From: Natronorubrum texcoconense
GTDB lineage: Archaea > Halobacteriota > Halobacteria > Halobacteriales > Natrialbaceae
Direction: 5' to 3'
DNA length: 64,000 nt
Assembly (NCBI RefSeq): GCF_900100335.1
Contig: NZ_FNFE01000002.1
Span: 248,001 to 312,000, forward strand
The notes beneath the pieces were generated by a model. That model did not search any database and was not told where the DNA came from. It saw only the letters and a program-made list of their open reading frames with translations. Positions 48,306 to 55,599 of the stretch are shown here, one piece after another; within the stretch, counting starts at the first letter, position 1, and every line of letters begins with the position of its first letter. The translations under genes were made by a program, and so were the position numbers.

Positions 48306-49460
48306 TCAGTCGGCGGCGACCTGCGTGGTCCCGTCGCGCTGGCCGGCCGGGAACCACGCGAGTTCGTGGTCGGCGGTGACGCGGACGGCGACGCGCTCGT
48401 CGAGGTCGATCCGGTCGGAGTGGTTGTGCATGCACTCGATGGTCTCGCCGGAATCGAGTTCGACGCGGTAGAGAACGGTGGGACCGAGATAGCGGCGATA
48501 GACCACGGAGCCGTTGGCCTCCTTGCCGTTCGCCGGGAAGGCCGTTACGTCGTCGGGGCGGACGAGCAGGTCGATGTTGGTCCCGTCGTACTGGTGGGCG
48601 AGGCCGTTGACGTCGTCGCGGAGGACGCGGCCGAGCGCGGTGTCGACGCTATCGCCGTGAACCTCCGCCGAGAGGAAGCTGGCGTGACCGAGAAAGCCCG
48701 CGACGAAGCGAGATTCGGGCTGCTGAAAGACCTGCTGGGGCGTGTCGATCTGCTCGATGTCGCCTTCGTTCATCACGGCGACGCGATCGGAGATCGACAG
48801 CGCCTCCTCCTGATCGTGGGTGACGGAGACCGCGGTGACGCCCGCTTCCTTGATGATTCGGCGGACTTCCTCGCGCATCTCGACGCGCAGATCGACGTCT
48901 AAGTTCGAGAAGGGTTCGTCGAGCAACAGCATCTCCGGCTCGGGGGCGAGCGAACGGGCGAGCGCGATCCGCTGTTGTTGCCCGCCGGAGAGCTCTTCTG
49001 GATAGCTATCGCCCTGATCCTCGAGCCCGACGAGTTCGAGCAGTTCGTCGACCCGATGGTCGCGTTCCTCGTCGGCCCACTCCTGTAAGCCGAAGGCGAC
49101 GTTCTCGCGGGCGGTCAGGTGTGGAAAGAGGGCGAACTCTTGAAAGACGACGCCGACGCCCCGTTCCTCCGGCGGAACGAATCGGCCGTCGCCCGCGACG
49201 GCGTCGTCTCGGAGTCTGATCTGGCCGCCGTTCGGTTTCTCGAGTCCGGCGATCAGGCGCAGCGTCGTCGTCTTGCCACAGCCAGAGGGGCCGAGTAACG
49301 TGAGAATCTCGCCGTCACAGACCGACAGCGAGAGGTCTGGGATGACCTCTTCGGTGCCGTACCGTTTGGCGACGCTCTCGAGTTCGAGTACCACGTTCTC
49401 CGCGTTTGGCTCCGATGGTTGTTCCTCGGCCGCCGTCGTGAGTAGTTGTCCGTTCCCCAT
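48306..49460 (-). CDS. FbpC-type ABC transporter ATP-binding protein
   Basis: 384 residues. Walker A is GPSGCGKTTT (57-66), followed by the Q-loop GVVFQEFALFPH, signature ELSGGQQQRIALARSLA, Walker B MLLLDEPFSNLD, and H-loop SVTHDQEEAL. The last 130 residues are a TOBE-type regulatory domain (VRPDDVTAFPANG, then YLGPTVLYRVELDSGETIECM). This is the layout of iron, spermidine or sulfate importer ATPases (FbpC/PotA-like). No permease or binding protein gene adjoins it, so it works with components encoded elsewhere. An iron-repressor-like operator in its promoter supports an iron role. Confidence 0.9.
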   Translation of the reverse strand: MGNGQLLTTAAEEQPSEPNAENVVLELESVAKRYGTEEVIPDLSLSVCDGEILTLLGPSGCGKTTTLRLIAGLEKPNGGQIRLRDDAVAGDGRFVPPEERGVGVVFQEFALFPHLTARENVAFGLQEWADEERDHRVDELLELVGLEDQGDSYPEELSGGQQQRIALARSLAPEPEMLLLDEPFSNLDVDLRVEMREEVRRIIKEAGVTAVSVTHDQEEALSISDRVAVMNEGDIEQIDTPQQVFQQPESRFVAGFLGHASFLSAEVHGDSVDTALGRVLRDDVNGLAHQYDGTNIDLLVRPDDVTAFPANGKEANGSVVYRRYLGPTVLYRVELDSGETIECMHNHSDRIDLDERVAVRVTADHELAWFPAGQRDGTTQVAAD

Positions 49461-49496
49461 CGATCGACCCTCCGGCGTCTGCCGGCGTTCGTTTGG

Positions 49497-49522
49497 TTTA
49501 GGCGTCCCTAAAACACTTATAG
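49497..49522 (-). promoter_or_regulatory. Promoter with DtxR/Idr-like palindrome
   Basis: On the minus strand a TATA box CTATAAGTG lies at 49522-49514. Immediately downstream is the perfect palindrome TTTAGG-N4-CCTAAA (49497-49512), placed between the TATA box and the predicted start near 49493. TTAGG/CCTAA half-sites are the core of DtxR-family and haloarchaeal iron-dependent repressor operators. Binding is inferred from sequence only. Confidence 0.6.
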
Positions 49523-55081: not shown

Positions 55082-55152
55082 GCGCGGGTGGTCTAGTGGC
55101 AGGACCTGAGCCTTCCAAGCTCATGGCCCGGGTTCAAGTCCCGGTCCGCGCA
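55082..55152 (+). tRNA. tRNA-Gly (anticodon UCC)
   Basis: 71 nt. The cloverleaf is complete. The acceptor stem GCGCGGG pairs with TCCGCGC (last pair G-T), followed by discriminator A and no encoded CCA. D stem GTCT/GGAC; anticodon stem TGAGC/GCTCA with loop CTTCCAA, anticodon TCC; T stem CCGGG/CCCGG with loop TTCAAGT. It reads GGA and probably GGG codons. Its 3' end is copied three more times in the next 6 kb, marking it as an integration target. Confidence 0.95.
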
Positions 55153-55396
55153 CTTTTCGAGGAACGGACGTGACGAGAAAATGCGCGAGAGGGATTTGAA
55201 GCACGCGAGTCGCAGCGTCCGAACGAAGTGAGGACGACCGTCTCGCAGTCGGGTTCAAGTCCCGGTCCGCGCATTTCTGTCGCGAGCAAACTCGCGAGCG
55301 ACAGCAATCGTACGAGGGGCTTGAAGTAGAGAAGTCGCAGCGCGTGAGCGAAGCGAACGCGACCGTCTTCGCGTGGTTCAAGTCCCGGTCCGCGCA
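55153..55396. repeat. Two tandem 121-123-bp units ending in copies of the tRNA-Gly 3' end
   Basis: The core TTCAAGTCCCGGTCCGCGCA occurs at 55133-55152 (in the tRNA), 55254-55273 and 55377-55396, spaced 121 and 123 bases. Each unit also carries GTCGCAGCG, a hairpin, and CGACCGTCT. The hairpins are CGTCC/GGACG (55216-55236) and CGCGT/ACGCG (55341-55361), with 11-nt loops GAACGAAGTGA and GAGCGAAGCGA. The stems differ but both pair. The copies are pseudo-att sites, not functional tRNAs. Confidence 0.8.
55277..55310. repeat. 34-nt repeat with hairpin, left copy
   Basis: Identical to 60954-60987. It contains TCGCGAG-CAAA-CTCGCGA, a perfect 7-bp stem with a 4-nt loop, flanked by CTG and CAGCAATCG. 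The paired copies at the two ends of the island extend the att duplication. Confidence 0.8.
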
Positions 55397-55599
55397 CACG
55401 CAACTCCGTTATCGCGGATATTCCGACCGAGAACCGGCACATGAGCTGGTACACGATCCGCCACTCTGTCGGGACCTACATGACTCGAGAAGAGGACCTG
55501 GCCGCTGCACAGGCACAGCTTCGCCACAAGAGCCCTGAGACGACCATGCGGTACGATCAGGCTCCGGTCGAAAATCGCCGAGGCCGCTCAACAATGTGA
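55397..55599 (+). pseudogene. C-terminal remnant of a tyrosine recombinase (integrase)
   Basis: The open frame reads NSVIADIPTENRHMSWYTIR, then HSVGTYM, then LAAAQAQLRHKSPETTMRYD, with a stop at 55597-55599. It retains the HxxR-type region (WYTIRHS), the LRHKS motif and the nucleophile tyrosine of TTMRYDQ, which are the end of haloarchaeal phage-type integrases. The frame enters directly from the third tRNA-Gly 3' copy at 55396, so the N-terminal three quarters are missing. The only internal ATG (55441) would give 52 residues. It cannot be an active enzyme. The abutment with att sequence may reflect an integrase gene split at its own attachment site. Confidence 0.8.

Follow-up and report, generated by a model that had tools for sequence, protein, structure and literature searches.

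A conserved iron-box-type operator at a split-off ABC ATPase gene of Natrialbaceae, the putative motor of a dispersed FbpABC-like importer

Haloarchaea reportedly possess an iron regulon of the ferR or Idr type, which is governed by a DtxR-family regulator (work said to be that of Leyn and Rodionov in 2015 and of Schmid in 2011). Among the uptake systems for iron, the ABC importers of the FbpABC/HitABC type combine a binding protein (FbpA), in which a Tyr-Tyr pair serves as iron ligands, with a two-domain permease (FbpB) and a MalK-type ATPase (FbpC). In other ABC systems, the motor is encoded apart from the permeases, as in the case of MsmX, a shared or multitask ATPase. The haloarchaeal ATPase gene described here has features of each of these systems. 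Like the ferR/Idr-type regulon, it involves an operator located in promoter regions of genes for siderophores and iron uptake, a likeness that concerns the class of the operator. Like FbpABC/HitABC, it involves an FbpA relative with the Tyr-Tyr pair, a two-domain FbpB and a MalK-type ATPase, which are encoded side by side in most relatives sampled; here, however, the ATPase gene lies apart from fbpAB, is presumably under regulation of its own and encodes a protein below the cut-off of the ferric ATPase model. Like MsmX, finally, it is an orphan motor encoded apart from a permease, but only one permease of its genome is without a motor within 10 kb.

We propose that this ATPase is probably the FbpC of a dispersed FbpABC-like importer, united with the fbpAB genes on another contig of the genome (C9) by an iron-box regulon of the DtxR-family, ferR/Idr type. 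While this class of operator is known, its assignment to a split-off ATPase seems to be new, and no paper on the orphan ATPase is found among the literature matches listed. The proposal would provide a protein that family models leave unnamed with a function and a partner, as well as with a control circuit, throughout an entire archaeal family.

The gene lies on the minus strand of the window, i.e. the whole 64-kb stretch of DNA that was analysed (48306–49460), and encodes a protein of 384 residues with an ABC_tran and a TOBE_2 domain. Its promoter (minus strand, CTATAAGTGTTTTAGGGACGCCTAAACC) contains the palindrome TTTAGG-N4-CCTAAA (49497–49512, on neither strand in particular), which reads TTTAGG-CGTC-CCTAAA and, on the minus strand, TTAGG-GACG-CCTAA flanked by T and A. 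A TATA box, TATAAG (49516–49521, minus strand), stands just upstream of it, and about 37 bases separate it from the ATG (49460–49458, minus strand). Given the usual archaeal distance from TATA box to transcription start, transcription would begin at about 49490–49496, so that the palindrome would lie between TATA box and transcription start; its location between the TATA box and the start of the gene, as the original prediction had read it, is confirmed. The predicted 5' leader contains a Shine-Dalgarno-like GGAGG (49469–49473, minus strand) ahead of the ATG and, as a comparison of leaders indicated, an inverted repeat, CCGGC-AGAC-GCCGG (49472–49485, minus strand), which could form a hairpin at the GGAGG. 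The pattern CCGG-N4-8-CCGG recurs in 32 of 41 ATPase leaders, including that of the window, compared to 1.0% of the window's 40-nt stretches; it may serve translational control or constitute a further protein site.

To assess the conservation of the operator, we collected 46 loci, from which five distant bacterial matches were dropped; 41 are haloarchaeal orthologues, and 40 were usable, as one (L103) comes without upstream DNA. The closest named orthologue is that of Natronorubrum sulfidifaciens (90% identity), from which we took Natrialbaceae as the family for our genome searches. Every one of these 40 Natrialbaceae orthologues has an exact TTAGG-N4-CCTAA ahead of the ATPase, with a varying spacer: across 40 distinct rows, one of them that of the window, neither the ten half-site letters nor the base flanking them on either side changes, while spacer positions 6–8 vary. 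These rows are anchored on the motif, and none had been discarded for want of it. The sites directly follow TATAAG, for which L102 has a closely similar word; this spacing was read by eye, and L102 deviates. Directly upstream of the TATA box, the alignment also contains a conserved ACCGGC-like word. Most of these loci share the gene order DUF5793 – ATPase – (DUF998) – UPF0058, and Natronorubrum bangense carries the ATPase region both on its chromosome and on a plasmid, with identical promoter sequence (L071, L107).

The operator is the sole exact match in the window, and exact matches are also enriched in the genome (4.64 Mb), with eight sites for TTTAGGN4CCTAAA against one for the reversed control word and twelve for TTAGGN4CCTAA against three. 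The genome scan that had been suggested as a check thus found the exact word mostly at genes of iron-related families rather than randomly scattered: ten of the twelve sites precede ABC uptake genes of iron or siderophore families, a label assigned by gene family. One is that of the window ATPase, two stand before a FecCD permease, two each before a Peripla_BP_2 protein on contigs C4 and C10, and three before an FbpA-type binding protein and an FbpB-type permease on C9, one of which also faces a methyltransferase gene. The other two, one before a 57-residue reading frame beside a DtxR-type gene and one intergenic, with a ferritin-family gene some 0.9 kb away, have no clear iron role. On C10, a one-mismatch site (L028 3075, C10:96074) has a TATA-like box on one side and, on the other, the start of a phosphonate-type binding protein, which also matches the Transferrin profile and is possibly a further iron gene.

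Beyond this genome, too, the word is not spread at random: it stands upstream of nearly all fbpAB loci examined. Of 20 siderophore clusters chosen from relatives, 19 likewise carry it, at most 4.9 kb ahead of an IucA_IucC match. In 17 of these 19 it is found at a distance of 3.3–3.6 kb, and 16 clusters have a pair of sites 34–36 bases apart. Three control words are absent from the 20 upstream regions, while the operator itself is missed only in G092. For 16 of the 20 clusters, a mechanical search for reading frames called a forward frame no more than 100 bases downstream of the start of a site; none was called within this distance in G031, G093 and G014. The clusters were hand-picked from the rows with a second IucA_IucC match, from the top down and skipping G035, G103 and G131 (a match is present in 42 genomes in total), and the region covered is the 5 kb before that second match. 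In an earlier form of the comparison, which used the best IucA_IucC match, only 9 of 30 loci had the site, since the best match mostly falls on one of the later genes of its cluster. The single IucA_IucC gene of the genome under study (C3:494233–495003) has no exact site near it, which counts against this pattern.

Together, these sites support an iron reading of the operator at the level of sequence. The palindrome would be the iron-box operator of the haloarchaeal DtxR-family (ferR/Idr type) regulon, whose iron-loaded regulator would occupy the stretch between TATA box and start site and thereby block transcription; when iron becomes scarce, the regulator would come off and the ATPase would be produced. 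A SirR-type regulator has been proposed, in an excerpt of PMC11218638, as a possible controller of iron uptake genes in Haloferax mediterranei. Passages of PMC5605881 and PMC8305020 contribute no information about the operator. The genome encodes three DtxR-family proteins (PF02742 above cut-off), none of which is tied to the operator. Directly before the longest of them, which has a FeoA domain, we noticed a variant palindrome, TTTAGGG-N8-CCCTAAA (L030 3010, C2:1170109), through which this gene possibly controls itself.

The same protein (C2:1169698 region) scores best against the MntR model, below its cut-off (215 of 350), and gives some room to the view that the cognate regulator is a manganese-type DtxR relative, or that the site serves activation instead of binding an iron-dependent repressor. 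This view would also accord with the title of a paper, which invokes positive feedback loops in the iron balance of archaea. Likewise, Table 1 of PMC11349517 lists the siderophore protein IucC of Haloferax volcanii as 10.4-fold lower in iron-starved cells, an entry that fits poorly with simple iron repression of siderophore genes. Against this view stand the occurrence of the word at the chosen siderophore clusters and at iron-type uptake genes, as well as its location between TATA box and start site, which would favour blocking. We therefore regard a manganese or activator site as rather unlikely.

A likely partner of the ATPase is encoded on C9, where, at about 12.2–15.3 kb, genes for a ferric-type binding protein (fbpA) and a two-domain permease (fbpB) share the operator and have no ATPase gene near them. 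The fbpA promoter (CTATATGTGTTTTAGGTCAGCCTAAAAC) is near-identical to that of the ATPase. When the 11 best matches to the ATPase in its own genome are compared, only the window ATPase lacks a BPD permease within 5.5 kb, the nearest being 204 kb away. Conversely, the C9 permease is the only one of 47 BPD permease domains in the genome without a listed ABC ATPase within 10 kb; the nearest, at 11.4 kb, is a 38% relative of the window ATPase. Of the 47, 38 have an ABC ATPase within 3 kb and seven more at 3.3–7.1 kb. Once permeases have been paired with listed ATPases, it is the window ATPase and the C9 permease that clearly remain. The expectation that no permease lies beside the ATPase applies locally: tblastn (>60 bits) finds neither the C9 permease nor its binding protein near the ATPase in any of the 41 loci, in flanks of up to 6 kb, or less where contigs end. 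Genome-wide it does not apply, since the likely partner permease is on C9.

This pairing is mirrored across the order. Among 146 genomes, 129 have both permease and ATPase, 15 have neither, and one each has only the ATPase or only the permease (Fisher p 2.4e-18, from counts not corrected for relatedness); the limits applied were 1e-85 and 1e-60, and both single-partner genomes are less than 75% complete. In 82 genomes, the best ATPase match directly neighbours a permease of the same orientation, and two annotated plasmids carry a binding protein, an 'iron ABC transporter permease' and the ATPase in sequence. In 47 genomes, our own included, the two genes are split or divergent, although 'split' may simply mean different contigs where a genome is fragmented; three of these (G029, G071 and G106) have a second, adjacent pair as well. 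Within the family, none of the 19 members that carry the ATPase has the adjacent arrangement.

In a tree of the ATPases, the orphan, split and operonic proteins form one clade (31 rows, support 100/98), with the paralogues from the genome under study outside; four of these paralogue rows are flagged as long branches, and one (L042) repeats the gene of another (L041). Since split and operonic genes are intermingled within the clade, the operon link was probably lost more than once. The designation of the ATPase as FbpC-like is thus borne out by its clade, but not by the curated ferric ATPase model NF008513, whose cut-off it misses (286 vs 496 bits), and none of the 25 models listed, from a total of 186, matches it above its own cut-off.

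The position of the operator follows these changes in gene order. In split genomes outside the family, the ATPase is preceded by an exact operator, at a distance of up to about 440 bases, in 24 of 28, the remaining four having a one-mismatch site only, compared to 4 of 40 operonic genomes, drawn at random from the 82; in three of these four, a gap of 324–338 bases separates fbpB from the ATPase. Upstream of fbpB, by contrast, exact sites occur throughout: in all 18 further family genomes, in 27 of the 28 other split genomes and in all 40 operonic ones. In G013, where no site was found, less than 800 bases of the fbpB region precede the contig end. Four control words are absent throughout this survey. 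In three of the 28 genomes (G010, G012 and G039), the genes for ATPase and permease occupy opposite strands, 1.3–1.6 kb apart, so that the same sites serve both counts. From operon to divergent pair to full split, the genomes form a natural series in which the operator stands at the gene once it is out of the operon. In the genome under study, the operon would have been taken apart with every piece under an operator of its own, whereby the pieces would still be produced together.

Within the family, ATPase and permease differ in their degree of conservation. Compared to our own sequences, the permeases are 74–86% identical in seven genomes and 51–56% in 11, whereas the ATPases are 73–85% identical in 16 of 18 genomes; in the other two (G094 and G100), with 66–68%, the ATPase and permease genes are on opposite strands and separated by less than 2 kb. 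A single clade of the family permeases is rejected by a tree with eight family rows (p 5.7e-12), in which the second type is represented by one row on a long branch and from which L138, matched in two pieces, and L131 were left out. The two permease types would be explained either by an exchange of the fbpAB module or by an old duplication followed by loss. A broader idea, which we put forward tentatively and with somewhat less than even confidence, is that a vertically inherited, independently iron-controlled FbpC drives either of two divergent, exchangeable FbpAB modules in Natrialbaceae, with the shared operator replacing the operon.

That an ATPase which itself varies little is combined with either of two deeply divergent types of permease could also mean that it is a motor shared by several permeases, FbpB among them, with the iron box setting its level for all. 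The MsmX-like precedents and the fact that the ATPase stands alone in all 41 orthologous loci would suit such a role, which we nevertheless judge quite unlikely, as the other permeases of the genome have ABC ATPases nearby, in the numbers given above, and the absence of the ATPase follows that of FbpB.

The dedicated importer that we favour, in which the ATPase would assemble with FbpB and act as the FbpC motor, would carry ferric iron. Among curated models, those that fit the ATPase, the permease and the binding protein best point elsewhere, namely to 2-aminoethylphosphonate (PhnT2, PhnU2 and phnS2 in NCBIfam), so that a related cargo of this kind has to be considered. All three models are far under their cut-offs, however (336 of 457.7, 131 of 593 and 38.9 of 392.75). 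Furthermore, of the 29 distinct solved sequences that FbpA matches, 25 bear the name of an iron or ferric protein; the best value is 7.1e-39, and FbpA keeps the Tyr-Tyr pair in register in the three alignments printed. Genomes of good quality without the transporter also have siderophore synthetases: among those at least 90% complete, an IucA_IucC match is present in 8 of 8 lacking fbpB and ATPase, compared to 32 of 114 with both (p 8e-5, uncorrected for kinship), as if the siderophore route replaced the FbpABC-like route, or the reverse. A cargo other than ferric iron is therefore highly improbable.

The plain scans carry their signal in exact words only, given that looser matching yields no excess: the window has four further matches, each with three mismatches, for a total of five against 3.24 expected, which is near chance, and the genome has 22 sites with one mismatch allowed, against 52 for the control. 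For this reason, one-mismatch sites, such as those near katG, MC1 and others, were left out of the regulon count. That the palindrome is a chance word, as this lack of an excess of loose matches in window and genome might suggest, is hardly credible for a site kept exactly in all 40 orthologues around a varying spacer. Elsewhere in the window (55121–55454, minus strand), overlapping frames with RGPGLEP and CADRDLN repeats appear by eye to be a short DNA repeat rather than genes.
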